Shown: one piece after another, positions 2,468-46,042 of the stretch | Layout: every line of letters begins with the position of its first letter | Position numbering within the stretch: the stretch's first letter is position 1 | Source: an uncultured Sphingomonadaceae bacterium | Lineage (GTDB): Bacteria; Pseudomonadota; Alphaproteobacteria; Sphingomonadales; Sphingomonadaceae | Assembly (NCBI GenBank): GCA_947494305.1 | Contig: CANLUL010000004.1 | Span: forward strand, 124,001 to 188,000 | Reading direction: 5' to 3' | Length of the DNA stretch: 64,000 bases | Made by a program: the position numbers and the translations under genes | The notes under the pieces: model-generated | Database searches by the model: none | Seen by the model: only the letters and a program-made list of their open reading frames with translations | Told to the model about the DNA's origin: nothing

Positions 2468-2511
2468 CCACCATCATCAAAATTTGTCCAGACAAATTTT
2501 GATGATGGTGG
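2468..2511. promoter_or_regulatory. 44-bp near-perfect palindrome containing operator TTTGTCCAGACAAA
   Basis: Arms 2468-2489 and 2490-2511 are inverted repeats matching at 21 of 22 positions; the only mismatch is the central pair. The core 2483-2496 is a one-base variant of the TTTGTCCGGACAAA element found at other promoters in this window. It lies in the 250-bp region between the divergent genes at 2410 and 2661, nearer the receptor. Most likely an extended repressor site for the receptor promoter; a hairpin role in the leader RNA is possible. Confidence 0.75.
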
Positions 2512-2591
2512 TGAATCCATTGAAATAATGTGGCATTTTTATCACATTAACTGTCACTTTTCCTCAGACTCACGCATTTTCGGATCAGAAA

Positions 2592-2605
2592 TTTGTCCGG
2601 ACAAA
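2592..2605. promoter_or_regulatory. operator TTTGTCCGGACAAA, head of the 2661 operon
   Basis: Perfect 14-bp palindrome (16 bp with the flanking A and T) 55 bp upstream of the start at 2661 and 96 bp from the centre of the 44-bp palindrome. Two sites in one divergent region suggest each promoter has its own. The rest of 2411-2660 shows no gene. Confidence 0.8.
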
Positions 2606-2660
2606 TATTTCTTGCCATCCGCATCGTAAAGAGGAAAGATACCTCAAGGAGAAAGGACGT

Positions 2661-3716
2661 ATGCGCAACTTGATCAGGTTTTTGATTGCGTTCCATCTAT
2701 TGTGGTCAGGTACAGCCTTTTCCGAAAGCGGACGCTCCTCAAAGCCTTTGCAATCGGGGTTCTCTGAAATCCTGATCACAACAGCGAAGCCTGCTGAATG
2801 GATCACTTTTCTGACCGCTGATGCGGGGTGGGAAATTCGCCATCGAAAACCATTGGTTTCGGCGGACATAAAACTGCTTGAGTTACCCAACCAAGCCACG
2901 GGCGAATCGATATTGTTGGCAAACAAAGGTAGTGATCGAGGATTCATCCGCTTGATACTGCTGAAAAATATCAAACAGGATCATATCCGGATCGATGATC
3001 GCCCTTGGGACACCGGAGGGATCTTCGATTTCAATATGCGTGTGGTCGGCCTTTACACACTAAGAGAAAAGCTTTTGGCCAAGGGATGGCATGGGGACAG
3101 CGAACCAATCCGATATGTTTTTGGGCCATTTGAAGTTATCGAATGGATCGCACGCGGGCCGGATGGTGTTAGAATTGCATTTATCGAACGATTAAGGCCT
3201 GCACTGGAAGGGTGGCCAAATTTATCGGTAACAAGCCGGGTTTTCAACAGCACCACAGTCGTCAAAGACATGAAAACATCCCGTGCCTTCTTCGAAAAAA
3301 TTATGGGAATGAAGCCCTATCTTACCAGCAACAAACCAAGCGACAAGGCCGGTCCCAATGTACTGGGGCTCCCCCACAACATCGCGACGATGATCTCACG
3401 CGATGTCGTTATCCTGCATCCTGAAGGCAAAAATGATGGATCTGTTGAGCTACTGCAATTTGTGGGTGCTACCGGCACCGATTATTCCAAGCGAGCAAAG
3501 CCATACAATCTTGGGATATCTGCACTCAGGTTTCCAGTAGACAACCTTGATCAATCGCTGAAACTATTGTCAGAGGCGGATGTAAAGATCGCTTCAGGCC
3601 CCATAAAAATGACCCTCAATCCATATGGTAGCATTCGCATCGCAGGTATCGACAGTCCTGACGGCGTACGGCTCGAATTATTCGAAATAACAGAGAAAGG
3701 TAATCGCAATGAGTGA
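2661..3716 (+). CDS. exported tandem-VOC (glyoxalase-fold) protein
   Basis: 351 residues. A hydrophobic N-terminal signal peptide (about residues 1-21, ending near SGTAFSE) is followed by two betaalphabetabetabeta VOC-type units, about 35-180 and 190-345. Recognisable VOC turns are RPWDTGGIFDF, RGPDGVRIAFIER and DSPDGVRLELFE. VOC proteins act as metal-dependent dioxygenases, lyases, isomerases or binding proteins; which applies here cannot be read. The start has a purine-rich RBS (AGGAGAAAGGA) and follows the operator at 2592. The stop overlaps the Tat-exported nitrilase-like gene by 8 bp, so both products probably work outside the cytoplasm. A paralogue with the same architecture lies at 9678-10697. 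Confidence 0.8.
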   Translation: MRNLIRFLIAFHLLWSGTAFSESGRSSKPLQSGFSEILITTAKPAEWITFLTADAGWEIRHRKPLVSADIKLLELPNQATGESILLANKGSDRGFIRLILLKNIKQDHIRIDDRPWDTGGIFDFNMRVVGLYTLREKLLAKGWHGDSEPIRYVFGPFEVIEWIARGPDGVRIAFIERLRPALEGWPNLSVTSRVFNSTTVVKDMKTSRAFFEKIMGMKPYLTSNKPSDKAGPNVLGLPHNIATMISRDVVILHPEGKNDGSVELLQFVGATGTDYSKRAKPYNLGISALRFPVDNLDQSLKLLSEADVKIASGPIKMTLNPYGSIRIAGIDSPDGVRLELFEITEKGNRNE

Positions 3717-4860
3717 TGACAAGGGACTGTCACGGCGCTCCTTATTCGGTGTAGGAGCCGCCGCTGCAGCCGCTGCTACCATTAATTGGAGTGATTTCGC
3801 TCAGGCTGCGGACAAGAATAACAAGCGCCCGATCAGTTTCACCCCCGATGGAAAATACGAAACAGTTCCCTTGGCTAAAAACATGATAAACCTCGGAATC
3901 GTCCAATCGCGTGTTGTTCCGGTAGAACTGTCTAACCTTAAACAATCGCGCAAAGCCAACGTGCAGCACATGTGTGATCTCATAGATGCCGCCAACGGTT
4001 TTAGCGGAAGCAAGGACCTGCTGTTCTTTCATGAATTTCCGATCACTGGCTTTTATCACGGCTGGAATCTGAAGGAGGCGCATCAAGTTGCCATCGAGCT
4101 TCCGGGTGAAGAAACGGAAGTGCTTGCCAAAAAGGCACGCGAATATGGTTGCTGGCTGGTTTTTGGATCATATGCCCGAGATCCGGATTGGCCAGACAGT
4201 CTTTTGTCGATCACATCAGTGATGAACGACAAAGGTGAAATTATCGACAAGCATTGGAAAGCCCGAAACATCAAAGGCTTTTTTCCAGGCGGTCGCGAAT
4301 TATTCACAACCACTATCTATGATGTTCTCGATCAATATATTGAAATGTATGGTGAGGATGCGGTTCTACCGGTCACCAGAACACCCCTCGGCAACATTGT
4401 GACCAGCAGTGTGCAGAGGGAGCCGGAATTGTTTCGCGCCTTCGCGATGAAGGGAGCAGAAATCATTCTCCGCACCGCAACAGGCGGATTCACACCGGTC
4501 GATATACAAGCAACATCCCTATACAATGGCGTCTATACCGCCATTGCCAACAACGCTGCCTCTCCCGAGAACAAATATTATTTCGCCGATGCAGGGGGAG
4601 GAAATTCTGCTCTTTACGGTCCCAGTGGCAAAGAAATTGACAAAGCGGAAACTGCTTTTGAAACACTTGTAACTGCTCGGATTCCGATAGCAGACTTCAG
4701 AGCGCGGCATCGACAACCGCTGGTACACACAGAACTTATCATGCCTGTCTACGAGCGATATAGATCCCGCTATGGACCCAACCTGCTCGCTGATTACAAG
4801 CCTACCGACTATGATGACGCTGGTCGTCACCTGCGAAACAAGACGCGCTGGCCAAAATAG
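3709..4860 (+). CDS. Tat-exported nitrilase-superfamily protein with Ser at the catalytic Cys position
   Basis: 383 residues. The N-terminus LSRRSLFGVGAAAAAAA is a twin-arginine signal, so the protein should be folded before export. The rest matches the carbon-nitrogen hydrolase fold: FFHEFP gives the catalytic Glu (E109), KHWKARN the Lys (K184). In the nucleophile segment, where the family has a Cys six residues before the Pro of the PE motif, this protein reads VTSSVQREPELFRAF, giving Ser233. Known nitrilases and amidases require Cys, so classical amide or nitrile hydrolysis is doubtful; a Ser-based enzyme or a binding protein is possible. A paralogue with the same replacement lies at 33630-34784. 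Translationally coupled to the exported VOC gene. Confidence 0.82.
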   Translation: MSDDKGLSRRSLFGVGAAAAAAATINWSDFAQAADKNNKRPISFTPDGKYETVPLAKNMINLGIVQSRVVPVELSNLKQSRKANVQHMCDLIDAANGFSGSKDLLFFHEFPITGFYHGWNLKEAHQVAIELPGEETEVLAKKAREYGCWLVFGSYARDPDWPDSLLSITSVMNDKGEIIDKHWKARNIKGFFPGGRELFTTTIYDVLDQYIEMYGEDAVLPVTRTPLGNIVTSSVQREPELFRAFAMKGAEIILRTATGGFTPVDIQATSLYNGVYTAIANNAASPENKYYFADAGGGNSALYGPSGKEIDKAETAFETLVTARIPIADFRARHRQPLVHTELIMPVYERYRSRYGPNLLADYKPTDYDDAGRHLRNKTRWPK

Positions 4861-4894
4861 ATGATTTAGCGATTGCAATGATCCCACGCTTCAG

Positions 4895-4914
4895 TAATTT
4901 GTCCGGACAAATTA
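4895..4914. promoter_or_regulatory. 20-bp perfect operator palindrome ahead of the 4927 operon
   Basis: TAATTTGTCCGGACAAATTA is fully self-complementary, the longest perfect version of the element apart from the 44-bp copy. It ends 12 bp before the ATG at 4927, and the RBS AGGAG (4916-4920) abuts it, so bound repressor would cover the translation start region as well. Confidence 0.85.
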
Positions 4915-4926
4915 TAGGAGATTCTA

Positions 4927-5232
4927 ATGCCAGCATATATGATCGTTACGGCTAACATTAAGGATCGCGATGCATTTATTGCAGGATATGGTGCCGCAGC
5001 CGGAGCATTGGTCGAGAAATTCGGCGGCAAATATGTACTGCGCGGTCCGGGGGCTGAACTGCTGGAAGGCGAATTTGGCGACGGCGCCTCCATGGTGATT
5101 TCCGAATGGCCCGACATGGAAGCGGCCCGTAAGTTTTGGAACTCTCCAGAATATGCAGAAGCAAAGAAGCTCCGCGCAGGCGTTGCGGATTGCCAGGTTC
5201 TTCTAATTGAAAGCCCAAAAATCAATGACTGA
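4927..5232 (+). CDS. DUF1330 family protein
   Basis: 101 residues, a ferredoxin-like alpha/beta-barrel monomer of the DUF1330 type: MPAYMIVTANIKDRDAF at the start, KYVLRGP in the middle, SMVISEWPDMEAARKFWNSPEY towards the end. Proteins of this size and fold often dimerise as small monooxygenase- or isomerase-like enzymes, but DUF1330 has no agreed function. First gene of a ten-gene operon, with a good RBS directly after the operator. Its stop overlaps the start of the next gene by 8 bp. Confidence 0.85.
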   Translation: MPAYMIVTANIKDRDAFIAGYGAAAGALVEKFGGKYVLRGPGAELLEGEFGDGASMVISEWPDMEAARKFWNSPEYAEAKKLRAGVADCQVLLIESPKIND

Positions 5233-5698
5233 TATTATTAAACGCACCACACTAATGGTTCGCGATGGTGACCAATCATCCAACTGGTATGAAACTGTGT
5301 TCGGCATGACCAAATGGATGGACACGCCCTTCACACTATCCGGAACACAGCTTGCAGCTGGAAAAAAAGGTGATCAGACAAGGCTCATCATTTTGAAATG
5401 CGAAGATGATCTGATCGGGATGATCGGATTGCTTGAATGGCTCGACCCCAAGATGGATGCCCCGGATGAACTACCGACTGAAATCAAGTTTGGAGCCCCT
5501 ATCTTCGTAGTTCAATCGGATGACGCCAAAGGCGCAGTTGAAAGAGCACGAACGCTTGGTTCCCGCATTCACAGTGAACCTAGAGAATGGCAAGTTACCG
5601 GAGCCGATGGTCGTAAGAAAGATATGATAGGCTGTTCCTTCTGGGATCTGGACGGTTATTTTTATGAAGTAAATCAAGTTGTGAAGGTTCACGACTAG
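5225..5698 (+). CDS. VOC family protein (single domain pair)
   Basis: 157 residues beginning MTDIIKRTTLMVRDGDQSSNWYETVFGM, a standard VOC first strand and helix, and ending with GCSFWDLDGYFYEVNQV, the usual second-unit end. The ATG at 5225 is chosen over an upstream TTG at 5207 because the alignment with VOC proteins starts there and it overlaps the previous stop. Likely a cytosolic metal-dependent enzyme or binding protein. The DLDGYFYEV segment supplies a metal-ligand-type Glu. Substrate not readable. Confidence 0.8.
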   Translation: MTDIIKRTTLMVRDGDQSSNWYETVFGMTKWMDTPFTLSGTQLAAGKKGDQTRLIILKCEDDLIGMIGLLEWLDPKMDAPDELPTEIKFGAPIFVVQSDDAKGAVERARTLGSRIHSEPREWQVTGADGRKKDMIGCSFWDLDGYFYEVNQVVKVHD

Positions 5699-6787
5699 GT
5701 GAATGTGACCAATCTCAACGCTTTTGATGCGCTAGCTGCAAACAAGCAGATTGATGATAATGCCAATTATCAATGGTGCGTAGCTGGGCGCCCAGAAGGC
5801 AATGTCCTTCCGTCAGATTTTCAATGGACCGCCACCGATATCCCCGAGCCCAATGAAGGGGAAGTTCTTCTTAAAACGCACTATCTAGGCCTCGCCCCGG
5901 TTATGCGCTTCTATATGATGGGTGGCAGCCCATCGGGCGAAGCCGAGCTTTCGATTGGTGATGTTATTCATGGTCGCGGCGTCGCACAAATTGTCAAATC
6001 TCGCCATCCAGATTGGCAAGAAGGCGAAATGGTGCAGGGCCAGATGGGCTGGCAAACCTACAAAGTCAGTACAATGTCGGAGCAAGAGAAGTTTTTTCGC
6101 ATGCCCAATAATGGCTTGTCTGCTGCATTGGGCTCAGGTGTCTTGGGAATGACCGGCCTGTCCGCACATGCTGGTTTTTTTGCTTGCGGGGATCCCAAAC
6201 CAGGTGATCGGATGGTACTTTCAGGGGCCGCTGGCGGGGTTGGTTCAATGGTTAGTCAATTGGCCGCCAATGTTTCAGGTTGCGATGTCGTCGGTATGGC
6301 TGGTGGGCCAGAAAAATGCGCCTTCATTTTGGAACATGGCTGCTCGGCAGCCATTGACTACAAATCAGATGATATTGAGGCAAAGCTCGATGGGCTGCGT
6401 CCCAATGGGATCGATCTTTACTTTGACAATGTCGGCGGTGAAACCTTGGAAGCATGTTTGGAACGCTTGCGGATGCATGCCCGCATCGTCCTTTGCGGTT
6501 CTATCAGCGAATATACCCGCGATGTACCCTTCAAGCTCTCTAACTATACACGATTGCGGGCCACCGACAGCCGGATGCAGGGCTTTTTCGTCTACAACCA
6601 CCTAAACAACTGGGAACGTGTGATGGATGATCTGGCTGGATGGATCCATGATGGCAAATTGAAACCAGCGCAGGACATCGAACAGGGATTTCAGAATATG
6701 CCAAAAGCATTGGCAAATCTATATTATGGCGCAAATGTTGGGGTGCAATGCTGCTCTGTGCGCGGAGAACCGGAGGAATGGTTATGA
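5699..6787 (+). CDS. MDR-family NADP-dependent oxidoreductase (CurA/leukotriene-B4-dehydrogenase-like)
   Basis: 362 residues with a GTG start directly after the previous stop (a second GTG lies two codons on). The N-terminal GroES-like domain (PNEGEVLLKTHYLGLAP) is followed by a Rossmann domain with SGAAGGVGSMVSQLA (about 180-195) and LYFDNVGGETLEACL, hallmarks of zinc-independent reductases that saturate the C=C bond of alpha,beta-unsaturated carbonyls. Expected cofactor NADPH. In this operon it would reduce an enone or enoyl intermediate after oxygenation. Overlaps the next gene by 4 bp. Confidence 0.88.
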   Translation: MNVTNLNAFDALAANKQIDDNANYQWCVAGRPEGNVLPSDFQWTATDIPEPNEGEVLLKTHYLGLAPVMRFYMMGGSPSGEAELSIGDVIHGRGVAQIVKSRHPDWQEGEMVQGQMGWQTYKVSTMSEQEKFFRMPNNGLSAALGSGVLGMTGLSAHAGFFACGDPKPGDRMVLSGAAGGVGSMVSQLAANVSGCDVVGMAGGPEKCAFILEHGCSAAIDYKSDDIEAKLDGLRPNGIDLYFDNVGGETLEACLERLRMHARIVLCGSISEYTRDVPFKLSNYTRLRATDSRMQGFFVYNHLNNWERVMDDLAGWIHDGKLKPAQDIEQGFQNMPKALANLYYGANVGVQCCSVRGEPEEWL

Positions 6788-7236
6788 ATACGAAGCCACA
6801 AGTACGGTTTCAACGTGCCAACTTTGTTGTTGAAGATATTGATCGTGCACTTGATTTCTATGAGGGCGTGCTGGGTTTTGATGTGACCTTTCGAAAGGGA
6901 CATAATCCTGAAAGCTATTCTATCCCAGTTTTTGAAATACCCGAGGGCGCGGAACTTGATTTCGCCATTCTTTCTCTTCCTGATCAACCACGTGTTATGG
7001 CACTCTCCGGTATCAAGAATGTAGAACATCTGCCCTATCCTCGCCCAAGACGCAGCGCGATCGTACTGGATGTAGACGATCCTGACAAAGTAATGGCTGA
7101 GAGCCGAGCGCTAAATTTGAAAGTTTACGACGAAGGTAGATTGGAAACCCACGATGGCAGAATTGGCCGTGAGATTGGAATTGTTGATTTTGATGACAAT
7201 CTGGTTGTGATCTATCTAATACCGGAAGCGCAATAA
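6784..7236 (+). CDS. VOC family protein
   Basis: 150 residues: NFVVEDIDRALDFYEGVLGFDVTF at the start and a second half ending DDNLVVIYLIPEA. The ATG at 6784 sits 7 nt after GGAGG, which decides it over the ATG at 6778. A glyoxalase/dioxygenase-fold enzyme of unknown substrate. Third VOC protein of this part of the island; stop and next start share one base. Confidence 0.82.
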   Translation: MNTKPQVRFQRANFVVEDIDRALDFYEGVLGFDVTFRKGHNPESYSIPVFEIPEGAELDFAILSLPDQPRVMALSGIKNVEHLPYPRPRRSAIVLDVDDPDKVMAESRALNLKVYDEGRLETHDGRIGREIGIVDFDDNLVVIYLIPEAQ

Positions 7237-8582
7237 TGGTGGATGCTACAGATACATCAGAAATGAAGGCAAAATCAGCGCCCTATCCAAGCGCCGCTGC
7301 GGGTTGGTTCCTCGTCATCATGCTCACTATCGCCTATGTCTTTAGTTTTGTGGATCGCTACATTCTTGGTCTGCTCATCGAGCCAATCAAAGCAGAATTC
7401 GGTCTCTCTGACCGATCAATAGGCTGGCTGCTTAGCGCCTTCACACTTGTCTATGGATTCGTTGGAATCTTTATGGGTTGGTTGATTGATCGAGGAAAGC
7501 GTGTCTGGATCGTGTCAATTGGCATTGCTCTCTGGTCGGCAGCAACAGTTGCGACAGGTACGGCAAAGAACTTTGTATCTTTGTTTGCGGCCCGTATGGG
7601 TGTTGGTGTTGGTGAAGCGACTTTGAGTCCTGCTACTTTTTCTATGATTGGGGACAGTTTCCCAACAGAAAAGCGAGGGAAACCCATTGCCTTTTATTCA
7701 TCGGCTCTCCCCTTGGGAGCCGGTATTGCATCCTTACTAAGCGGGGCCATTATCGCCTGGACAGCCGCAAGTGGCAGTCAAACACTACCCTTTTTTGGGG
7801 AGCTTTCGCCTTGGCGTTTTACGCTAATTGTCGTCGGCCTTCCCGGTATTGTATTGGCCGCCATGTTCCTGTTCATGAAGGAACCTGCGAGGCGTCCAAC
7901 GACTTCCACTGACGTTATCGGTGGCAGCGGCTTTTTCGATGCTCTCAAATATATCTGGGACAACAAAACGCTGTATATTGGATTTGTCCTGATCATCTGC
8001 ACAATGACGGCAATTGCCTATAGCCAAGGGTTTCTTGCGCCGACTTTTGAACGCACATGGGGATGGTCTCCTCAAAAATATGCCTTCATTAACGGTGTAG
8101 CGTTGCTGATCATTGGGCCTGCAAACATGCTGATTATGGGAACATTATCTGATTGGTGGACCAAAAAAGGCGTGAAGGATGCGTCTTTGCGCATCCTCTA
8201 TGTGGGCTTTTTCATCATGGTCCCCACAGCATCTTTACCGTTGTTCATGCCAACAGGAGAGCTGGCCTTTGCGATATTGTGCATCAATACAATCGGCATC
8301 GGTATAGTATCGGCGATCGGGGTGACTTCTTTGCTGGTGATTACGCCGGCCCAAATTCGTGGTCAGATTGTTGCGCTTTATTATCTGGCTATAAGCTGGT
8401 TCGGATCACTCGGACCAATTGCTGTAGGTGAGCTCTCTAGCGGTGTATTTGGCGAAGAAAATTTGCGGTATGCGGTCGCAACCGTACCCTTTATCTTTGC
8501 CATTGTTCCGCTTCTCATGATGCCAATGACCAGAAGACTCTATCTAAGACAGATGGATCGTTTGGGAGAATCTACAGAATGA
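7236..8582 (+). CDS. MFS transporter
   Basis: 448 residues with about 12 membrane segments. The segment FVDRYILGLLIEPIKAEFGLSD and the loop GWLIDRGKRVW correspond to the MFS signature between TM2 and TM3. It resembles spinster/ACS-type organic-anion symporters. It would move the pathway substrate or a product across the inner membrane. Embedded in the operon by 1-base and 4-base overlaps, so its cargo should belong to this pathway. A second MFS gene lies at 30781. Confidence 0.9.
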   Translation: MVDATDTSEMKAKSAPYPSAAAGWFLVIMLTIAYVFSFVDRYILGLLIEPIKAEFGLSDRSIGWLLSAFTLVYGFVGIFMGWLIDRGKRVWIVSIGIALWSAATVATGTAKNFVSLFAARMGVGVGEATLSPATFSMIGDSFPTEKRGKPIAFYSSALPLGAGIASLLSGAIIAWTAASGSQTLPFFGELSPWRFTLIVVGLPGIVLAAMFLFMKEPARRPTTSTDVIGGSGFFDALKYIWDNKTLYIGFVLIICTMTAIAYSQGFLAPTFERTWGWSPQKYAFINGVALLIIGPANMLIMGTLSDWWTKKGVKDASLRILYVGFFIMVPTASLPLFMPTGELAFAILCINTIGIGIVSAIGVTSLLVITPAQIRGQIVALYYLAISWFGSLGPIAVGELSSGVFGEENLRYAVATVPFIFAIVPLLMMPMTRRLYLRQMDRLGESTE

Positions 8583-9382
8583 TCAGAAAAGGTTATTCCG
8601 ATGGTCCATTCGGACAAGTCCATTGGCGGATGATGGAAGCACAAGGCGCAGCAACGAAGTCAGATTTATATTGCATGCATCCCGGTCCCTTTAGCGGAAT
8701 TGCCTACACTAACATCATGCCGCACCTTGCGCTTAATCGGCGGGTAATTGCACCAGACTACCCCGGCTATGGTGGATCAGATCCGTTCAAAGAACACCCT
8801 TCAATAGAAGAATATGCTCACGCCATATTCGCTGTCGTGAAGGATCTGTCCGGCGACACTCCGATAGACTTGACGGGTTTTCACACGGGTAATCTAGTGG
8901 CTGGAGAAATGGCTGTCACAGATCCTTCGAGCATAAATAGATTGGCATTTGTTGATGTGCCTGCCTTTGATGCCGAAACCAGTGCGAAATATCGTTCGAT
9001 GGCGGCCCAGCCGTTTGAGATTAGTGATGACAAGGAATGTTTAGCAAAACCATGGAATCGGGGTGTTACCAGTCGCATCTCTGAACAAGGGCCCGCACGC
9101 GCAATCGAGATGTTTGCCGAGCAGTTGCGCGCCGGACGCAATATGCATACCGCCTTTGACGCAGCATTCACTTATGATGTTTACGATCGGCTACCTCAAA
9201 TAACACATGCTTGTTTGGTATTGGGCACACAATCAGATCTTCTCGACGCAACCCGCTGGGCCGGAGCCAATATCCCAAACGCCACGTTTGTGGAACGGCT
9301 CGATATTGAAAAAGGCGTCCTTGATCAAAATGCAGAAGCGACGGCGAAAGAAATTCTCACATTTTTGGATGGAGTAGATTGA
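8579..9382 (+). CDS. alpha/beta-hydrolase-fold protein lacking the nucleophilic Ser
   Basis: 267 residues. HPGPFSG forms the oxyanion region and PDYPGYGGSD a typical strand-5 loop. The nucleophile elbow, normally G-x-Ser-x-G, reads GFHTG, placing His102 where Ser should be, and no His is seen where the C-terminal catalytic His is expected (DIEKGVLDQN). It therefore lacks the standard triad. The other alpha/beta-hydrolase gene (46049) has the same G-F-H-x-G elbow. It may be a cofactor-independent lyase or dioxygenase-like enzyme, or non-hydrolytic. Overlaps the MFS gene by 4 bp. Confidence 0.8.
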   Translation: MIRKGYSDGPFGQVHWRMMEAQGAATKSDLYCMHPGPFSGIAYTNIMPHLALNRRVIAPDYPGYGGSDPFKEHPSIEEYAHAIFAVVKDLSGDTPIDLTGFHTGNLVAGEMAVTDPSSINRLAFVDVPAFDAETSAKYRSMAAQPFEISDDKECLAKPWNRGVTSRISEQGPARAIEMFAEQLRAGRNMHTAFDAAFTYDVYDRLPQITHACLVLGTQSDLLDATRWAGANIPNATFVERLDIEKGVLDQNAEATAKEILTFLDGVD

Positions 9383-9684
9383 TGTCACATTATGCGATTT
9401 ATTGCCGCGACAAGGCGGGATCAGAAGATCAGCGACAAGCCGCAAGCCCAGCGCATCTCAAGCATGTTGAAAAGCACCTTGATCATTATTTTATCGCTGG
9501 CCCTATCAGAGATGAAAGCGGAGCGACCGTAGGATCCTTACTGATCGTCAAAGCCGATAGTGTTGATGAAGCGCGTGCATTTCTTGAGCAAGACCCCTAT
9601 TTCTCTGCCGATATTTGGGAAAGCATTGAAATCCATGATTTCATGCCCGCAGCGGGAGATTGGATCGGCGGCAAAATATGGTGA
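9382..9684 (+). CDS. YciI-like protein
   Basis: 100 residues of the YCII-related fold: MSHYAIYCRDKAGSEDQR, HLKHVEKHLDHYFIAGP, then SADIWESIEIHDFMP. YciI-family proteins are small ferredoxin-like barrels with conserved His and Asp residues, a few of which act as dehydrochlorinases or isomerases. Start ATG at 9382 shares its A with the previous stop. Probably a small ring-processing or isomerising enzyme here, but that is inference. Confidence 0.8.
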   Translation: MSHYAIYCRDKAGSEDQRQAASPAHLKHVEKHLDHYFIAGPIRDESGATVGSLLIVKADSVDEARAFLEQDPYFSADIWESIEIHDFMPAAGDWIGGKIW

Positions 9685-10697: not shown

Positions 10698-10700
10698 CTT

Positions 10701-11291: not shown

Positions 11292-11797
11292 CCAGTGCTA
11301 AATCTATGCTGATGTTTGTGCTGGTGCACCTGTCGATACCAACATATGTGTTGGCTGCACAGCCGACCGCCAAAACCGACATGTCAGTTGCCGACAGTCA
11401 GCAGATTTCAGCATGGGCTGCGCAGTGGAAACAATTGATCGAAGCGGGGCATATCGAAAAAATGCGCGATATGTATGAACCCGATGCAGTGCTGATGTCC
11501 AATGGAGCACCGCCACAAATCGGCGTAAATGCGATATTGAAATTTCTTGGCCGGAATAAAGTAGCAGGCAATAAGGTTACCATCGACTTCGCCAATGAAG
11601 ACCTGACTTTGGAAGGTGATCGTGCCTATCTGACCGCAAAGTACTGGATGACCATTACGCTCGCTCGCGGTAGCTCAATAAATGTGATGGGCAGATCGTT
11701 CTTAGTCTTTAAAAAGAACCAAGATAAAAAATGGAGGCTCTGGAAAGACATAGACAATCAAGCGCCGGATGTTCGGTCTGAAGATCGTCCAAACTAG
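11288..11797 (+). CDS. exported NTF2-like (SnoaL/DUF4440-type) protein
   Basis: 169 residues. ATG at 11288 begins a signal peptide (about 1-24, ending YVLAAQ). The mature part has the cone-shaped NTF2 fold: QWKQLIEAGHIEKMRDMYEPDAVLMSNGAPPQIG and KKWRLWKDIDNQ. Such proteins are small hydrolases, isomerases or binding proteins. Last gene of the operon; its stop overlaps the convergent minus-strand gene by 4 bp, so no separate terminator is visible between the two operons. Confidence 0.78.
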   Translation: MTSAKSMLMFVLVHLSIPTYVLAAQPTAKTDMSVADSQQISAWAAQWKQLIEAGHIEKMRDMYEPDAVLMSNGAPPQIGVNAILKFLGRNKVAGNKVTIDFANEDLTLEGDRAYLTAKYWMTITLARGSSINVMGRSFLVFKKNQDKKWRLWKDIDNQAPDVRSEDRPN

Positions 11798-37128: not shown

Positions 37129-37158
37129 CATTGCTCCCCTGCAATATTCGTGATTAAT

Positions 37159-37959: not shown

Positions 37960-37961
37960 AA

Positions 37962-39124: not shown

Positions 39125-40150
39125 CTATCCGGCTGCGCGTATCAATATTTTACCGAAATGCGACCCGCTTTCCAGATGACGAAATGCATCCGGTGCCGCA
39201 GCAAAGGCAAACTCCTTGTCGACAGGATTATTGATGCCTTGTTTTGCCACGACATCGATGGCCGAGACCATCATCTCTCTGCTTCCTGAAGCCAGTCCTT
39301 TGATGGTAATATTCTTGCCAATCAATGCGCCCTGACTGGCGCTGGCTTGCGCTTGGGGCGTTCCTGACAAGGCGCCTAAAGTACCAATTTTTCCATTAAC
39401 CGCTGTCGCCGCCACCGTTTCCTCCAGTGCGGGGAAACCTAGCGTATCCACAACAACATCGGCTCCACGTCCATTCGTCTGTTCCATCAATGCGGCAGCC
39501 CAGTCGGGACGTTCGCGATAGTTGGCTGTAAAATCAGCTCCCATTTCCCGGGTGCGCGCCAGTTTTTCCTCACTAGAAGATGTAATCGCAAAATCAGCTC
39601 CCAAGGCCTTTGCCAATTGCAAAGCAAATATAGAAACACCGCCAGTACCTTGCGACAAAACCAGTTCGCCTGGTTTTACATCTCCAAACGCGACCATTGC
39701 GTGCCAAACGGTGCCTGCAACTACTGACAAAGATGCTGCCGTCTGATCCGAAATTGCCTCCGGCAAAGCAATGGCTGCATCCGCCGGCAGCAAGATTTTC
39801 TCGGCCAACCAACCATCCTTGGTTACCCCTAGATCAGCGCCAAATATTCCGAAATTATAGGCTCCGTCCAACCAAGTCGTGAAATGAGGAGCCATTACAC
39901 GATCGCCTATATTGAAACCTTCAACACCATCTCCAATAGCTTCGATCATCCCAACACCATCAGAAAGTGGCACGCGAGTTTCCGGAAGATCAGTGCCGTA
40001 GGCACCACCGATAACCATCAAATCTCGATAATTTAGGCCAGCAGCGGTCACTTTGATCAATAGTTGTCCTGCACCAGCAACCGGATCATCCCGTTCTGAC
40101 AATATAAGACCATCAATGCCGGTCCTTGCTCCCATTTGCCACGCTCTCAT
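39125..40150 (-). CDS. MDR-family NAD(P)-dependent alcohol dehydrogenase/quinone reductase
   Basis: 341 residues. GLNYRDLMVIGGAYGTDLP in the N-terminal domain, Rossmann motif LSQGTGGVSIFALQLAKALGA, and SGSHFGKILI at the end. It lacks an evident catalytic-zinc Cys-His set (PLSDGVGMIEAIG replaces the GHE motif), so it is a quinone-oxidoreductase-like, zinc-free member. Last gene of the eight-gene minus operon; convergent with the FAD monooxygenase. Confidence 0.88.
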   Translation of the reverse strand: MRAWQMGARTGIDGLILSERDDPVAGAGQLLIKVTAAGLNYRDLMVIGGAYGTDLPETRVPLSDGVGMIEAIGDGVEGFNIGDRVMAPHFTTWLDGAYNFGIFGADLGVTKDGWLAEKILLPADAAIALPEAISDQTAASLSVVAGTVWHAMVAFGDVKPGELVLSQGTGGVSIFALQLAKALGADFAITSSSEEKLARTREMGADFTANYRERPDWAAALMEQTNGRGADVVVDTLGFPALEETVAATAVNGKIGTLGALSGTPQAQASASQGALIGKNITIKGLASGSREMMVSAIDVVAKQGINNPVDKEFAFAAAPDAFRHLESGSHFGKILIRAAG

Positions 40151-40153
40151 ATA

Positions 40154-40405
40154 CTATTCCCCCTCGCGCAGCGGCGCAAAAATACGATTTATAAATTCCT
40201 GGAGCTTGGCTTCTTTTTGCTCGGGCGAGGCTTCCAAGCCTTCTAGCGCCATCAACCGCTCTTCCTGAACCCACATCTCCTGCACCATATTCATGATTAC
40301 AGCGACGTAGCGATCCATGCCGGGGTCATCAAAAAATTTTGGTTTTCCATCTGGTCCGTAAATTTCCTTCGGAGTATCATCCGGTTTAAATGCTGGCTCC
40401 GCCAT
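40154..40405 (-). CDS. small helical partner of the second methyltransferase
   Basis: 83 residues, start ATG at 40405 sharing one base with the methyltransferase stop. KPKFFDDPGMDRYVAVIMNMVQEMWVQEERLMALEGL corresponds to the 120-residue partner at 36010-36372, but is shorter at its C-terminal end. The duplicated gene pair makes it likely a genuine partner of the enzyme. No named family recognised. Confidence 0.72.
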   Translation of the reverse strand: MAEPAFKPDDTPKEIYGPDGKPKFFDDPGMDRYVAVIMNMVQEMWVQEERLMALEGLEASPEQKEAKLQEFINRIFAPLREGE

Positions 40406-41592
40406 TATTCTTTCCACGCTCCAAAGCCAAACCACATAATACCCTCTGCGAGGCGCCCAGTTGTTTCGCTGTCCACCGCATTCGCATCTTCATTGGCAAT
40501 CGCTTCCGCGACAGCATCTTCACCATAAATTCCAATACTGGGAACGACGAATTGAAAATAGTCCTCCGCACCAAAACCTCCGTTCTCGCATAGTGACTTC
40601 GGATCTTCATCGCGAAAACCTTTGTAGAATGGTTCGCTGTTATACCAACTGTCCCAATCCAGATAGAAGCCTTCAAAAGCGCCCATCTGATCATTCGGTG
40701 GCAATTCCATATGCAGCAGCAGCCCGCCCGGTTTCAAAACACGATAGGCCTCTTCAAACGCCTTGGCTCGCGCTTTTGCAGACAGCTCATGCAGAAACAT
40801 CGATGAGAAAACGAGGTCGAAACTTTCGTCCTCATAGTCTAATGCATCGGCAGACATTTGTTTGAAATGGACTTCTTGGCCTTGCATTTTCGCCCTCGCA
40901 GATGCGTAGCAAAGTCCTCCTGCCGCCGCATCAATTGCCTCGACTTTAGCGTCAGGGAAGGTCTGCTTCCACGGCAAAGTATTGTGACCGATCGTACAAC
41001 CGGTATCCAGGATGCGCTCTGGTTTGAACTCCGGAAACTTTCCGGACACATAGGCCGACATGGAAAGTCCGATATCATCCAGATTAGCGCCCATAAGGCC
41101 CATGGAGAACACAGCCAGACCTTGATCGTAGACCGCGCCAGCTTCCAGTGAATTGCCGCCCCGAGTATAGCTTCCCGGCATTAAATGCACTTCAATGGCA
41201 TCAACGTTGCGAGGAATGTCCATATCGGGATTCAAAGTGACGGAACCTGGAATATTGTCCACTTTCTTGGCTTCTGCTTCCATCCGTTCCAGATCACGTT
41301 CGACGATCGAACCGGCCGCATTCCAAACCATTTTTTGTGCCTGTACCCGCATCGCAGAATAGATGTTGAAAGCTGGATCACCCCGCATTGCGACATGCGC
41401 TTCATTGCTCGTCTGGGGCGATCGTCCGTTTTCCCGAGCAAACGCCGGGGCCGCCCGTTCGTCAAAGGCCGTGTGCAAATCCGCGGCCAGATCATTCAAG
41501 ATGAAGGAGCGAATGCCAGACACAAACCGTCCCCTCGCCGCCTCATCGGTTGTCAGTTCCGGTTTCATTGGATGTTTTAGTTCCACGCCCAT
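40405..41592 (-). CDS. class I SAM-dependent methyltransferase, paralogue of 34781 gene
   Basis: 395 residues with AGGAG six bases before ATG. The SAM core RILDTGCTIGHNTLP (about 193-207), VEAIDAA and LVFSSMFLHELSAKARAKAFEEAYRVLKPGG align with the enzyme at 34781-36013. The N-terminal 190-residue domain also corresponds (LNPDMDIPR, IEVHLMPGSYT). Divergence is high, so the duplication is old and the two copies probably act on different intermediates. Confidence 0.87.
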   Translation of the reverse strand: MGVELKHPMKPELTTDEAARGRFVSGIRSFILNDLAADLHTAFDERAAPAFARENGRSPQTSNEAHVAMRGDPAFNIYSAMRVQAQKMVWNAAGSIVERDLERMEAEAKKVDNIPGSVTLNPDMDIPRNVDAIEVHLMPGSYTRGGNSLEAGAVYDQGLAVFSMGLMGANLDDIGLSMSAYVSGKFPEFKPERILDTGCTIGHNTLPWKQTFPDAKVEAIDAAAGGLCYASARAKMQGQEVHFKQMSADALDYEDESFDLVFSSMFLHELSAKARAKAFEEAYRVLKPGGLLLHMELPPNDQMGAFEGFYLDWDSWYNSEPFYKGFRDEDPKSLCENGGFGAEDYFQFVVPSIGIYGEDAVAEAIANEDANAVDSETTGRLAEGIMWFGFGAWKE

Positions 41593-41601
41593 CTTGCTCT
41601 C

Positions 41602-42057
41602 CTATTCAACTCGTTTTTCGTCACAAAGGGTGCGCTTGTAAGGCACCCCATCACGAAACCATTGCCAAATCCGTGCCCTCGATTGACCATCGTCAGCAAT
41701 TTCGATCATCTCGGTATACCGCTCGCCGGGAGCGTCTTTTCGGTCAAGTCGCAATAGTAACAGTCCTTCACTATCCCAACCATAGCCAGAGAAGCGATCT
41801 GTTTCCCAATAGACTTTTCCATCCCGATAGACGCCGCCAAATTCATATTTCGCTGTTGTTCCATCTGACCAAATCAAATCATTGTGCTGAATGTAAGCAT
41901 ATTCACCAGAGTCGGGAAACTCGCAGTGAGTGACAACCTGATGCTCATCGATCAGCGTTCCATTTGCCGCCTGGTGCCGATAGATACCATCCCAATGCCC
42001 TTCATGCGCCAACATGCTGGGCATATTTTCTGCCAATAGTTTCCGCCATCCGCTCAT
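41602..42057 (-). CDS. uncharacterised beta-rich protein, paralogue of 47425 gene
   Basis: 151 residues. LAHEGHWDGIYRH, GTLIDEHQVVTHCEFPD, NDLIWSDGTTAKYEF and IADDGQSRARIWQWFRDG recur as corresponding segments in the protein at 47425-47925. Probably a lipocalin/FABP-like barrel (a DUF3598-like identity is possible) that binds a small hydrophobic ligand. Enzymatic role unknown. Overlaps the aldehyde dehydrogenase by 4 bp. Confidence 0.7.
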   Translation of the reverse strand: MSGWRKLLAENMPSMLAHEGHWDGIYRHQAANGTLIDEHQVVTHCEFPDSGEYAYIQHNDLIWSDGTTAKYEFGGVYRDGKVYWETDRFSGYGWDSEGLLLLRLDRKDAPGERYTEMIEIADDGQSRARIWQWFRDGVPYKRTLCDEKRVE

Positions 42058-43478
42058 GTAAAATTCTGTTCTGCAAAGTCGCTAATTTTGGCTGCTTCGC
42101 CGCTTTGTCTAATCAATACGCGCTTTCGAAAAAAGCGCATCAAACCGCTGCTTCCCATACGAGAAGCACCCAGCCCGGAATTTTTAAAACTTGATTTTTC
42201 TGCCTCCCAGACCATCGAAGTCAGCGATCCATCGTTGATCGATATACCACCGGCGTTTAGCCTGGAACCCACCCGTTCTGCCTCTTCCAAATTCCCAGCA
42301 ACAACGGCTGCGGAAAGCCCAAAATCTGTCGCATTCGCCATCATTACGGCCTCGTCAACAGTGTCAAACGCGCGCACTGGAATGACAGGGCCAAAGTTTT
42401 CATCAGAAATTACGGTCATTTGTGAAGTAACATTGGTCAAAACGGTAGGTCGCAAATAGTGGCCACCATCCAGTATCTCCACCTTACCTCCAGTCAGGAT
42501 TTCCGCCCCTTTTTTGACAGCATCATCTATCTGAGATTGCGCTATTTCGGCCTGCTTATCAAAAATAAATGGGCCTATATGCCCCTGATTGATATCCGGA
42601 TGGTTTAACTCCACAGCCTCGGCCTGTGTCACAAGGCTATCGAGAAACTCCCCGGCAATTTCTTTAGCAACATAGACCCGCTCAATAGACTGACAGGCCT
42701 GTCCCGTATTCACAATGCTAGCTCTTAAAGCGGTTGCAGCAGCTTTCTCAGGATCAGCGCTAGCCAAAACGATCATTGGGTCTTTTCCGCCCAATTCGAG
42801 ACTGGCTGGAATGAACGCCTTTGCTGCTGCTTCTCCAACCTTTCGTCCGGTAGCAACTGATCCGGTGAAACAAACATAGTCGACATGCTCAATCATCGCT
42901 GCACCCGTTGCACCATCTCCTTCCACAATGGACAGAACGGCTGCGAGTTCTGGCACCGCCTTTACGGTATCCATCAAGGGAGCAATGAAGCGTGGTGTGA
43001 CCTCCGATGGCTTAATCAATACTGCACATCCCGCCATCAACGCCGGAATGGCATCAATGAGAGCCAATGTCATTGGGAAGTTCCAGGGACTGATCACACC
43101 CACAAGTTGATAGGGTACAAGCTGCGTTGATGTTGTGATTGTAGGTTGCGACGTTGGTTGATCAGTCACTTGCTCTTGGGCAATCAGCTTCGGCGCTAGC
43201 TCTACCCACCGCCTTATCTGTCCCGGTACTCCAGCCGCTTCTATCTTTGATATGCCAGATCGACCGGTATCGTCGGTAAGTGCTGAAATGATGACGCCCA
43301 AATTCGCTTCAATTGCCGTGGCCCATTCGATCAAAATGACACCGCGTTCATTTGGTGTTTTGTGAGCCCATTCTGATTGAGCTGACCGCAATCTGTCTGC
43401 TTCCGAAGCAATGGCATTTTGGTCCAGCGGACTTATTTTATAGTCCGTTTCACCGGTTCTGGGATTCCGCACTTTCAT
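42054..43478 (-). CDS. aldehyde dehydrogenase family protein
   Basis: 474 residues from ATG at 43478 (ATGA overlap with the NodB-like stop). VISPWNFPMTLAL (oxyanion Asn133), SLELGGKDPMIV (general-base Glu228) and NTGQACQSIERVYV (nucleophile Cys262) are all intact, with the C-terminal NDGSLTSMVWEAEKSSFKNSG. NAD(P)-dependent oxidation of an aldehyde or semialdehyde to an acid, probably a ring-cleavage or side-chain product. Confidence 0.95.
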   Translation of the reverse strand: MKVRNPRTGETDYKISPLDQNAIASEADRLRSAQSEWAHKTPNERGVILIEWATAIEANLGVIISALTDDTGRSGISKIEAAGVPGQIRRWVELAPKLIAQEQVTDQPTSQPTITTSTQLVPYQLVGVISPWNFPMTLALIDAIPALMAGCAVLIKPSEVTPRFIAPLMDTVKAVPELAAVLSIVEGDGATGAAMIEHVDYVCFTGSVATGRKVGEAAAKAFIPASLELGGKDPMIVLASADPEKAAATALRASIVNTGQACQSIERVYVAKEIAGEFLDSLVTQAEAVELNHPDINQGHIGPFIFDKQAEIAQSQIDDAVKKGAEILTGGKVEILDGGHYLRPTVLTNVTSQMTVISDENFGPVIPVRAFDTVDEAVMMANATDFGLSAAVVAGNLEEAERVGSRLNAGGISINDGSLTSMVWEAEKSSFKNSGLGASRMGSSGLMRFFRKRVLIRQSGEAAKISDFAEQNFT

Positions 43479-44398
43479 TGCTGTGCCTTCCAACTGTCCA
43501 TAATTTCATCACCGCGGGCAAAGCCGATATCATCCCGTGCAGCGAAACCGGTAATCAGTTTTTCAAAACTAGAAATCCGATAAGGCAATCCCATAATATA
43601 GGGAGTCAGATGCATCGGAAGCATGCGGCCACCATGGCTCTCGGCTTCTGCCAATAACCAGTTTGCCGCATCCTCCATCGATTCAGCATAGCTGTCCACC
43701 GATTGCTGTTGCACATTGATGATTTGGCGATCCGATAGCTCGTGGTTCAGCGGAATATTGATAACCGGGCCGGACTGCGTATCGAACTGGTAGGGCAATT
43801 CGTCATTGACCCAGTCGCACATATATTCAATCCCGGCATCTACAAGCAGCTTCGCGGTATTAAAGCTTTGAGATCGAGCAATAGATAGCCAGCCCCGGGG
43901 CCGCGTGCCCACAACTGCTTCCAATCCATCCAGAGCTGTTGCAATCAGCGCCTGTTCTTCCGCTTCATCCATGCCGCTGGCTATAGTACCGTTCATGTCC
44001 ATACTATGCGCGATAATCTCATGCCCGGCGGCAACGATGTCCTGCACTAGGTCCGGATAACGCTGCGCAATTGCGCTATTTGTCGCGACAGAAACCTTGG
44101 CACCGACTTTCTCGAACGCGTCAAGCAGGCGGTATATGCCAATGCGCGTTCCATATTCCCTTGCCGTGTAGTGGCGGTAATCAGGATAGGCTGTTTGCAT
44201 ATGTCCAGGTGCCCTGAAAGGATCATCTGTTGGAACAATGGGAAACCATTCCAGGCTGATAACGGGCCAAACCAAGAGTTTCTTTCCGTTTGGCCATGTG
44301 ATGGGAGTGCGCTCAAAGAAATTGGAATAGGGATAATAATCGTGATCCATACCGCGTCGGCGTTTTGGATATTCGAGATAGTTAGAGTCCAAACTCAT
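43475..44398 (-). CDS. NodB-like polysaccharide-deacetylase-fold hydrolase
   Basis: 307 residues from ATG at 44398 (ATGA overlap). PVISLEWFPIV corresponds to the acidic-ligand strand, GHEIIAHSMDMNG to the metal-binding His strand, and GTRPRGWLSIARSQSFNT to the next conserved loop. No export signal. The usual second His (HxxxH) is not obvious after AHSMDMN, so metal binding may differ from PuuE. Tandem with a second family member at 44395. Confidence 0.82.
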   Translation of the reverse strand: MSLDSNYLEYPKRRRGMDHDYYPYSNFFERTPITWPNGKKLLVWPVISLEWFPIVPTDDPFRAPGHMQTAYPDYRHYTAREYGTRIGIYRLLDAFEKVGAKVSVATNSAIAQRYPDLVQDIVAAGHEIIAHSMDMNGTIASGMDEAEEQALIATALDGLEAVVGTRPRGWLSIARSQSFNTAKLLVDAGIEYMCDWVNDELPYQFDTQSGPVINIPLNHELSDRQIINVQQQSVDSYAESMEDAANWLLAEAESHGGRMLPMHLTPYIMGLPYRISSFEKLITGFAARDDIGFARGDEIMDSWKAQQ

Positions 44399-45285
44399 AT
44401 GCCACCCCCAACCTGCGCACGATAGGCATCCACAATATTGCCCGCTTTGGAAATCCATGCACGGCCATCATTTGCGATATGCTCAAGCACCTTTTCAAAG
44501 GGTCCAATGCGATGTGGCTGCCCGATCAAATAGCTATGCAATGGAATACACATGACCGTTCCGGATTTTTCCCCTTCGTCGGCTAGCCGATCATATTGCC
44601 TTATCAACGTGTCGGCATATTCCCGCGGCGACATGTTATAAATGAAAAAGCCATAGTGATCATTTACCTCAAGGCTATACGGGATAGCAGTCAACTGACC
44701 GGTTTTGACATTTACATTAGTGGGTTGGTCATCATGATAGAGATCGCAAGTATAGTCGAGACCATATTCCGCCAACAGGTCCAGCGTGCGCGGCGTATGG
44801 GTTAATGCAGGTGCGAGCCAACCCCGAATATTCTGGCCGGTGGCTCGCTTCACCGTTTCAATCGAGTCCTCGATTATCGCGCGCTCCTGCGCTTCGTCCA
44901 TCCCATAGGAATAGCGTGTGTTGTAAATACCATGACTGAAAAACTCCCAACCACGTTCATTGGCATCGTCCACTACTTCCGGGATATGATCGCACAAAGC
45001 AATTGACAGGCTGATCGATCCCGGAAAACCATGTTTCGACATAACATCTGCCATACGCCAGTGGGAAACCCGATTGGCATGATCCCGGTGTGAATAACCA
45101 ACCACATCGGGATGCGGCTTTGGCCAACTCTTGCGATGGGGATTGACCGCGGGATCGAGCTCATAAAATTCCAAATTAGGTGCCACCCAAACGGCACAGG
45201 TTTTCCCTTCTGGCCATTCCAGCTTGGGCCGGCCGCGATAGCCGGAATATTCATACAAACCTGGGTCGGCGGAACCCTGTTTCAT
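44395..45285 (-). CDS. NodB-like polysaccharide-deacetylase-fold hydrolase
   Basis: 296 residues from ATG at 45285. VAPNLEFYELD carries the acidic ligand; EFFSHGIYNTRYSYGMDE the first metal His; NIRGWLAPALTHTPRTLDLL the later loop; IPLHSYLIGQPHRI a late His. The form with SHGIYNTRY resembles fungal and bacterial ureidoacid or allantoinase-like amidohydrolases. With the two other NodB-like genes it suggests several C-N bonds in ring or chain form are cut. Cytosolic. Confidence 0.84.
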   Translation of the reverse strand: MKQGSADPGLYEYSGYRGRPKLEWPEGKTCAVWVAPNLEFYELDPAVNPHRKSWPKPHPDVVGYSHRDHANRVSHWRMADVMSKHGFPGSISLSIALCDHIPEVVDDANERGWEFFSHGIYNTRYSYGMDEAQERAIIEDSIETVKRATGQNIRGWLAPALTHTPRTLDLLAEYGLDYTCDLYHDDQPTNVNVKTGQLTAIPYSLEVNDHYGFFIYNMSPREYADTLIRQYDRLADEGEKSGTVMCIPLHSYLIGQPHRIGPFEKVLEHIANDGRAWISKAGNIVDAYRAQVGGGI

Positions 45286-45959
45286 CAACGCGCCTCCAAC
45301 CAGTCGACAACTGCCTGAACCGGTTCCACGTCCGCATATTTTAACTGCAGATCGGTCAGGTTGGCAAAGTGGTAGCTTTCATGTTTGTCTGCACATGTTT
45401 CAATCGGAACAATTGCTCTATACCCATGACTTAGCGCATCAACCGCCGTTGCCCGGACACAACCCGATGTTGAGCCACCGGTCACCACCACGGTATCAAC
45501 TTTGTGCCAGACCAAATAGCTGGCCAATTGGGTCTCAAAAAACGCACTGGGCATGCGCTTCGTATATTGCAGGTCATCGGCATCAATTTCACAACGCGGA
45601 TCGAGCTGATGCCGTTCGGATTCATATTTGATGTTTTGCAAAGAGTCTTCAGTATCAGTTCGTGTACCCCAAACACCTGCATCGCCTGCGTCATTCTTGT
45701 AGGCGACACGTGACCATATTACCGGCATGCCTTTAGAACGCGCCAAAGCAGAAATCTGATTGATATATTCAATCTGCCTTGGATCAGTTTCATAGGCGGT
45801 CTTAAATAGGTCCGTTCTGGTATACGCTTGTTGGACATCGACATTCACAATTGCCAGTTTCTCGCCGAAACCGAATTTCTTTCGTTCGGGATTGCCGATC
45901 ACCGCATCAAAAATCTCTTTTGCAGTGCGTCCATCTTCGACCATTTTTGTACCGATCAA
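45285..45959 (-). CDS. isochorismatase-family cysteine amidohydrolase (N-carbamoylsarcosine/maleamate-amidase-like)
   Basis: 224 residues. The TTG start at 45959 is supported by AAGGAG nine bases upstream; the ATG at 45944 lacks one. The catalytic Asp41 (VNVDVQQAY), Lys134 (YTKRMPSAFFET) and Cys167 (GGSTSGCVRATAVDAL) are all present. Members split C-N bonds of carbamoyl amino acids, maleamate, nicotinamide or ureidoacrylate. First gene of the eight-gene minus operon, divergent from the alpha/beta-hydrolase-like gene over the operator at 46027. Confidence 0.9.
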   Translation of the reverse strand: MIGTKMVEDGRTAKEIFDAVIGNPERKKFGFGEKLAIVNVDVQQAYTRTDLFKTAYETDPRQIEYINQISALARSKGMPVIWSRVAYKNDAGDAGVWGTRTDTEDSLQNIKYESERHQLDPRCEIDADDLQYTKRMPSAFFETQLASYLVWHKVDTVVVTGGSTSGCVRATAVDALSHGYRAIVPIETCADKHESYHFANLTDLQLKYADVEPVQAVVDWLEAR

Positions 45960-46024
45960 CGCAATAATCTCCTTTTCAGAATCAATTTATTTACAATAAT
46001 CACAAGAAAAAGCTTGTCGAGAGA

Positions 46025-46042
46025 AATTTGTCCGGACAAATT
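46025..46042. promoter_or_regulatory. operator AATTTGTCCGGACAAATT between divergent 45959 and 46049 genes
   Basis: Perfect 18-bp palindrome. It ends six bases before the ATG at 46049, so it covers that gene's RBS region, and starts 65 bp from the isochorismatase start on the other side. Confidence 0.85.

Follow-up and report, generated by a model that had tools for sequence, protein, structure and literature searches.

The palindromic word TTTGTCCGGACAAA recurs in front of the operons of a 64,000-nucleotide stretch from an uncultured Sphingomonadaceae bacterium (C4:124001-188000, referred to below as the window), and the gene at 20575-21321 on the plus strand of the same stretch encodes a transcriptional regulator of the GntR/HutC type. 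The palindrome, in its 16-bp form ATTTGTCCGGACAAAT, is very probably (about 0.88) the operator of this HutC-subfamily protein, which would govern one regulon. Four lines of evidence lead to this interpretation: the near-exclusivity of the word in the genome, its co-occurrence with the regulator among related genomes, its conserved placement upstream of orthologous genes, and a half-site spacing typical of HutC operators. In addition, the regulator, the motif, and the genes recur together in two genomes from outside the family, G831 and G385. The sites, their near-exclusivity, their link to the regulator, and their conserved placement were computed directly. Binding by the 20575 protein, repression, and effector release are what we infer from them.

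The palindrome in the window and in the genome

The window contains six exact copies of TTTGTCCGGACAAA (at 2592, 4898, 26245, 28069, 37161, and 46027), two copies with one mismatch (2483 and 30748), and one with three (20574), and an earlier note on this DNA had placed all nine correctly. When up to three mismatches are allowed, 12 matches are found against 3.64 expected, a number reached in none of 100 shuffles. The remaining matches, at 13442, 44079, and 45448, were dropped as operators because each has three mismatches and lies within an open reading frame (ORF); the one at 13442 is barely inside the start of ORF 12698-13462. The positions 22802 and 17876, also within genes, carry only a half-site, as the note had said.

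The genome-wide search for unrelated copies that the note had proposed covered 11 contigs (3,348,108 bases). All seven exact copies fall in C4:119900-170040, that is, in the window and the 4.1 kb upstream of it, and so do 10 of the 11 sites with at most one mismatch, the outlier being C1:1514662. Two of these sites are upstream of the window, at C4:119900 (exact) and C4:121538 (one mismatch), and 3' of 46040 contig C4 has no site with one mismatch or fewer. Simple arithmetic puts the expected number of exact copies of a 14-mer in a genome of this size at about 0.01, and the reversed word, used as a control, has no exact match in the same genome. The core TTGTCYRGACAA is present at 11 places, 10 of them in C4:119900-170040, against 1 for the reversed control. 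With up to two mismatches, the 14-mer has 32 matches genome-wide and its reversed control 20, and the two-mismatch sites in the genome are mostly background.

The 16-bp consensus comes from an alignment of the region's eleven sites. The stretches compared, window included, contain 57 exact copies, of which 98% keep the outer A and 93% the outer T, and the centre of the sites is mostly CG, with CA or TG in some. The presence of several near-identical copies in one region could also indicate a repeat or a mobile sequence rather than an operator. This explanation is scarcely tenable, as conservation is confined to the 16-bp core while the flanks diverge, and in other genomes, too, the sites precede these same genes.

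The site at 2483 is also the centre of a perfect inverted repeat (2462-2518, arms of 21 nt, centre of 2 nt), which as RNA folds with -34.2 kcal/mol on one strand and -32.8 kcal/mol on the other (z -8.3 and -9.4, respectively). None of 112 other sites with at most one mismatch has arms longer than 13.

The HutC-type regulator and its operator class

By its domains, the 20575 protein is a member of the HutC subfamily of GntR regulators: it matches the GntR helix-turn-helix family PF00392 with 59.8 bits (cut-off 27) and the UTRA family PF07702 with 74.8 bits (cut-off 23.8). It is the only such regulator in its genome at E 1e-30, and its orthologue in Parasphingorhabdus marina DSM 22363 is 83% identical. 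HutC-subfamily operators are described as mostly carrying GT and AC 4 nt apart, with the consensus NyGTMTAKACNy (PMC4494728). The segment GTCCGGAC within the exact sites has this GT-4 nt-AC spacing. The centre is CG here and TA there; the latter is a position of that published consensus and not a subfamily requirement. A further difference from the subfamily is that about 17 units are gathered here in one block.

Upstream regions of regulator genes (200 bp, up to three mismatches) contain a site in 12 of 25 cases, window included. Therefore, autoregulation is plausible within this genus and not general.

Co-occurrence of word and regulator

Among 298 Sphingomonadaceae genomes, the exact word TTTGTCCGGACAAA is present in 37 and the regulator (a match at E <= 1e-30) in 40. 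Both occur in 34 genomes, the word alone in 3 (G014, G170, and G291, one copy apiece), the regulator alone in 6, and neither in 255 (Fisher p 4e-35, a value that ignores shared ancestry). The regulator is present in all 26 genomes with at least two exact copies and in 8 of the 11 with one copy. A genome of the same genus, G203, has neither word nor regulator.

Sites remote from the regulator speak for regulation in trans. For example, in G072 a set of isochorismatase, PuuE-like, and LeuCD-type genes is located about 0.41 Mb from the regulator and yet keeps an exact site, and in G278 an exact site at a distance from the cluster precedes two genes that, judged from their sequences, are MDR-like and alpha/beta-hydrolase-like. 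The other two of the three exact sites in G072 (C1:469711 and C2:134268) overlap several competing ORFs, lie apart from any matched regulon gene, and are probably chance occurrences.

Genomes beyond the family were found by searching with a calycin and the isochorismatase of the regulon. G831, from the same class and another family, has most of the gene set in one 40-kb stretch, with regulators of 36% identity and sites that include exact copies at C1:2981127 and C2:609829. G385, from another class, has the core genes, a regulator of 33% identity, and TATGTCCGGACAAA at the start of its MmgE/PrpD operon.

Conservation of the sites upstream of orthologues

Conservation in orthologous clusters was assessed in 35 locus sets from 33 genomes, a site being a match with at most two mismatches between 250 bp upstream of and 30 bp inside an orthologue. 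The division into operon heads and internal genes was taken from the window's own sites. The count leaves out the stretches G072b, G072d, and G278b, the window genome, L188 (G204), genes starting past 52100, search windows running off a stretch, and protein matches that had less than 40% identity or 60% coverage or began past query residue 40. A site is found upstream of 133 of 222 orthologues of head genes and of 7 of 474 orthologues of internal genes. With untrimmed starts (seven proteins are over-extended at the N-terminus; residue-70 limit) the numbers are 115 of 213 and 8 of 482. The best-kept sites precede the lyase 25394 (17/17), the two TonB-receptor genes (8/8 and 12/12), the hydrolase 46028 (10/10), and the membrane protein 27298 (15/17). 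Four of the seven internal matches precede 34781, which suggests that the promoter may have moved in those genomes. The centre of the site is no more than 110 bp from the inferred start in 135 of 140 cases, a placement that fits a repressor blocking promoters.

Weighing the regulon

It could be argued that the sites are operators of a different or additional regulator and that the 20575 protein is merely a neighbour: the site at its own start region is weak, and 13 of 25 regulators have none there. We consider this improbable in view of the co-occurrence and the HutC spacing, and because sites stand beside regulators of only 38–47% identity (G250, G173, G030, G286, G038, and G012, all counted among the 12 with an upstream site) and recur with the still more distant ones of G831 and G385. 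Moreover, a Pfam scan of the regulon genes (39125 and the first TonB-like gene being outside it) matched no other regulator family.

Several observations weigh against the assignment of the palindrome to the 20575 protein. The window regulator's own site has three mismatches, and fewer than half of the regulators examined have one at all. The Fisher p overstates the case, since the genomes are related. Six genomes (G030, G113, G132, G218, G219, and G253) have the regulator without the exact word. The regulator region was examined in 22 of the 34 genomes with both, and an exact copy is present there in 13; seven (G204, G072, G286, G038, G012, G020, and G105) have only sites with one or two mismatches near the regulator, and G250 and G173 only sites with three. 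Some of the exact copies counted in these genomes may therefore be due to chance. Sites are poorly kept before 30781 (2/19), the MmgE/PrpD gene 19304 at the head of its operon (7/25), and the regulator (6/22). Finally, G919, G570, G764, G940, G1011, G998, and G907 have isochorismatase/PuuE or calycin relatives and a partial gene set, and no site with one mismatch or fewer was found in the stretches examined, three of which are contigs under 10 kb. With these points taken into account, the single regulon under a HutC-type 20575 protein, as the note had proposed, is strongly supported by the four lines of evidence given at the outset.

Placement of the sites and predicted transcription units

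Start codons were corrected from homology before site positions were assigned (Table 1). Seven of the nine sites then lie between divergent genes, in six intergenic regions (2483/2592, 20574, 26245, 28069, 37161, and 46027), in place of the five sites counted in the note, and those at 4898 and 30748 precede operons running one way only. The ORF called mechanically at 46028 starts within the operator because TTG belongs to the word; its likely start is 46049. As a promoter site, 20574 holds only in part: a match is present, but it is weak and overlaps the start codon of the regulator. Better matches are found at this position in G278 and G089. The statement that the sites head every large operon is valid if 39125-40150 belongs to the leftward operon from 45944; a siteless gap of 254 bp separates it from the next gene.

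Table 1. Predicted operators and transcription units of the window. Mismatches are relative to TTTGTCCGGACAAA; fractions are loci in which orthologues have a site.
Feature	Position	Strand	Match	Context or content
Predicted operator TTTGTCCAGACAAA	2483..2496		1 mismatch	Upstream of TonB-receptor-like gene (start ~2410, -); 8/8 orthologues
Predicted operator	2592..2605		exact	Upstream of 2661-4860 (+); 0 usable loci for orthologues of 2661
Predicted operator	4898..4911		exact	Upstream of 4927-11797 (+); 5/12
Weak predicted operator TATGTCCAGACAAC	20574..20587		3 mismatches	At regulator start codon; upstream of divergent operon 20548-to-11794
Predicted operator	26245..26258		exact	Between divergent lyase (start ~26203, -) and DUF1838 gene (start ~26316, +); 17/17 and 14/18
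Predicted operator	28069..28082		exact	Between divergent membrane protein 27975-27298 (-) and TonB receptor 28108 (+); 15/17 and 12/12
Predicted operator GTTGTCCGGACAAA	30748..30761		1 mismatch	Upstream of 30781-36013 (+); 2/19
Predicted operator	37161..37174		exact	Between divergent membrane protein (start ~37131, -) and beta-barrel protein (start ~37231, +); 6/8 and 5/15
Predicted operator	46027..46040		exact	Between divergent isochorismatase (start ~45944, -) and alpha/beta hydrolase (start ~46049, +); 11/19 and 10/10
Two predicted operons (sites 2592, 4898)	2661..11797	+		VOC proteins, CN hydrolase, DUF1330, MDR-type reductase, MFS, alpha/beta hydrolase, YCII, CMD, SnoaL-like
Predicted operon	11794..20548	-		Two MmgE/PrpD, PaaK-like CoA ligase, amidase, HapK-like, SDR, PuuE-like hydrolase, enoyl-CoA hydratase, VOC
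Regulator gene	20575..21321	+		GntR/HutC-type (GntR helix-turn-helix + UTRA), presumed repressor; from Pfam and co-occurrence
Predicted operon	21327..26203	-		RipC-like lyase, RipB-like hydratase, acyl-CoA dehydrogenase, two CoA-transferases III
Gene	26316..27221	+		DUF1838 protein
Gene	27298..27975	-		Hydrophobic (membrane-like) protein, no Pfam family
Gene	28108..30660	+		TonB-dependent receptor
Predicted operon	30781..36013	+		MFS, FAD oxidase, CN hydrolase, methyltransferase-like
Gene	36436..37131	-		Hydrophobic protein, weak DUF2269 match
Unit	37231..39116	+		Beta-barrel protein (fold match DUF1849) and FAD monooxygenase
Unit	39125..45944	-		Isochorismatase, two polysaccharide-deacetylase/PuuE-like hydrolases, aldehyde dehydrogenase, calycin-like, methyltransferase-like, quinone-oxidoreductase-like (39125, named from sequence)
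Unit	46049..52030	+		Alpha/beta hydrolase, DUF3598-like calycin, LeuC/LeuD-type hydratase, HMGL-like lyase, CoA-transferase III; last unit with a site

Upstream of the window, the site C4:121538 heads a unit (L001:17575-19877) of an amine-oxidase-family flavoprotein and an alpha/beta hydrolase. At the other end, genes past 52147 mostly have no match in the relatives' stretches, some of which end shortly after the cluster; 52147 itself has relatives at 44–47% in G285, G092, and G060. Positions 52147-63390 form a separate siteless set (a TonB-like receptor, two SnoaL-like proteins, a racemase-like protein, a GntR-type regulator, a CoA-transferase-like protein, and a hydantoinase A/B-like pair, named from sequence), several genes of which have relatives in G218 at 47–84% identity.

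Proposed regulation and chemistry

A dimer of the regulator would bind at or just 3' of the promoters and thus keep about 17 predicted units, spread over about 50 kb (C4:119900 to window position 52030), from being transcribed. A small effector, probably a pathway intermediate, would bind the UTRA domain and release the repressor, which would turn on uptake (through TonB receptors and MFS transporters) at the same time as breakdown.

Pfam and NCBIfam searches of the regulon give, for uptake, one TonB receptor (another, before 2410, is so named from its sequence) and two MFS proteins, and further five proteins with VOC (Glyoxalase) domains and flavin enzymes. The hydrolases are an amidase, two CN hydrolases, an isochorismatase, and three of the polysaccharide-deacetylase type, and the remaining proteins comprise a PaaK-like ligase, two MmgE/PrpD proteins, CoA-transferases III, an acyl-CoA dehydrogenase, RipB- and RipC-like proteins, LeuC/LeuD-type proteins, and an HMGL-like lyase. 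Two of the polysaccharide-deacetylase-type hydrolases, those tested, are PuuE-like: 13462-14331 and 44398-45288 match PuuE in both profile and PDB sequence searches. The third (43478-44458) matches only Polysacc_deac_1 in the Pfam scan. The LeuC-type protein passed two subfamily models and fell short of the equivalog-domain model (529 against 560.25), the LeuD-type protein passed its cut-off (175 against 116.25), and the HMGL-like lyase also passed its subfamily model. A role of the LeuC-type protein in plain leucine biosynthesis was considered; a second LeuC (46% identity) is encoded elsewhere in the genome, at C1:1739856, and the LeuC/LeuD pair of the regulon is therefore probably not the only isomerase.

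HxnM has been proposed as a cyclic imidase and linked to PuuE relatives (PMC9304392). In G764 and G907 (L181:5288-9863; L186:12099-14821; L186:18047 to L187:639), PuuE-like and isochorismatase genes are near a LeuC-type/DmdB-family hydratase pair and a gene of the methylisocitrate/2,3-dimethylmalate-lyase type. The DmdB-family subunit of G764, beside the PuuE pair, is above its cut-off, and the same gene types are present in G907; in a PDB search, the G764 lyase matches methylisocitrate lyases first and 2,3-dimethylmalate lyase lower. G907 also has a UbiX-type gene. The PuuE relatives, the link to HxnM, and these hydratase and lyase neighbours suggest a route from imide to half-amide, substituted maleate or succinate, malate-type acid, and lyase products. 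In the regulon, PuuE-like hydrolases would open fragments as cyclic imides, hydrolysis of the half-amides would fall to the isochorismatase, the amidase, or the CN hydrolases, and the substituted C4-dicarboxylates would enter metabolism by RipB/RipC-like chemistry and by LeuCD-like hydration followed by an HMGL-like lyase.

Each of the known systems resembles this scheme only in part. The scores of the two PuuE-like hydrolases (243.7 for 13462-14331 and 106.4 for 44398-45288) are far under the TIGR03212 cut-off of 424.6, and the gene setting, judged by families, is not that of purine or nicotinate catabolism. RipC (244.3, cut-off 375) and RipB (230.9, cut-off 340) of itaconate degradation are the best NCBIfam matches, also below cut-off; these shortfalls tell against the scheme. 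The order of the steps in the Rip pathway is taken as general background. The dimethylmaleate route consists of a hydratase followed by dimethylmalate lyase, and a DmdB-family hydratase subunit and a lyase of the methylisocitrate/2,3-dimethylmalate-lyase type are encoded beside the PuuE pair in G764, with the same gene types in G907; in the window, by contrast, the hydratase is of the LeuC/LeuD type and the second lyase of the HMGL type, and the substrate must carry other substituents. On this reading the regulon would serve the catabolism of a nitrogen-containing compound, and the chance is about even for the part that leads from cyclic imides to substituted C4-dicarboxylates.

One pathway or several

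The note had concluded from the shared operator that the regulon is one pathway, a pathway it did not name. This does not follow from a shared operator. The genes can be divided into two sets or more: in the stretches examined, an amidase/ligase/MmgE core is near the regulator in G286, G250, G038, G173, and G030, and the isochorismatase/PuuE/LeuCD set is the one found remote in G072. One pathway for the whole regulon is something that we infer. The regulon may instead be real, and under the 20575 protein, but directed at two or more unrelated substrates. To this we give a considerable, though lesser, chance; the separable sets are in its favour, as are G047, G107, and G204, which lack the isochorismatase/LeuCD set in the stretches examined. 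On the other side, both sets are within the examined stretch in 9 of 14 genomes, G831 keeps most genes together in its single stretch, and breaking down even a single compound would take several branches if its rings carried different substituents.

A tetrapyrrole as candidate substrate

Maleimides are oxidation products of tetrapyrroles, and substituted maleimides therefore point to tetrapyrroles. The favoured substrate, put forward tentatively and with more doubt than confidence, is a linear tetrapyrrole (a bilin or chlorophyll breakdown pigment), which would be mineralised by a dedicated programme under one HutC-type repressor with ATTTGTCCGGACAAAT. TonB receptors would import it, calycins would carry it, and oxidative cutting would yield substituted maleimides or succinimides. 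PuuE-like imidases would then open the imides, and two ring types would feed the two lyase branches.

The calycin at 47425-47922 is weakly DUF3598-like in sequence. According to its predicted model (pLDDT 92.7), its fold is like that of the phycobilin-lyase group: in the PDB it comes closest to BFA1, a Ycf58 protein, a DUF3598 protein, and the phycobilin lyase CpeS, and nitrobindin and lipocalins rank lower. Ycf58 is a name that we take to denote the CpcS type. Foldseek matches include 3bdr (4.2e-6) and 4tq2 (5.2e-5), and for the BFA1/DUF3598, phycobilin-lyase, and nitrobindin calycins as a whole E is 2e-6 to 4e-3 and the TM-score (query) about 0.56-0.68. In contrast to this likeness of fold, identity is 11–15%, and lipocalins and designed barrels appear in the same list.

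Other observations point away from a tetrapyrrole. Calycins bind many ligands, neither heme oxygenase (PF01126) nor PaO (PF08417) has a match at E <= 0.001 in the genome, and the amine oxidase at C4:121575 is closest to monoamine oxidase. A hemA-like gene (5-aminolevulinate synthase, named from sequence; C4:118456-119676 in L001) is the divergent neighbour of site C4:119900; it was dropped as a tetrapyrrole link, as a search at E 1e-30 of the 28 other stretch sets examined gave no match. A limited literature search by title found no bacterial pathway of this tetrapyrrole-breakdown kind and nothing apt on the cluster composition, the word with GntR, DUF3598, or maleimide or bilin catabolism.

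Significance

The predicted regulon brings together about 55 predicted genes, many without a known function, as a single unit open to testing, and supplies a regulator, an operator, and a list of genomes with or without them. If the substrate is indeed a tetrapyrrole, these would be genes for a step in the turnover of pigment carbon and nitrogen.

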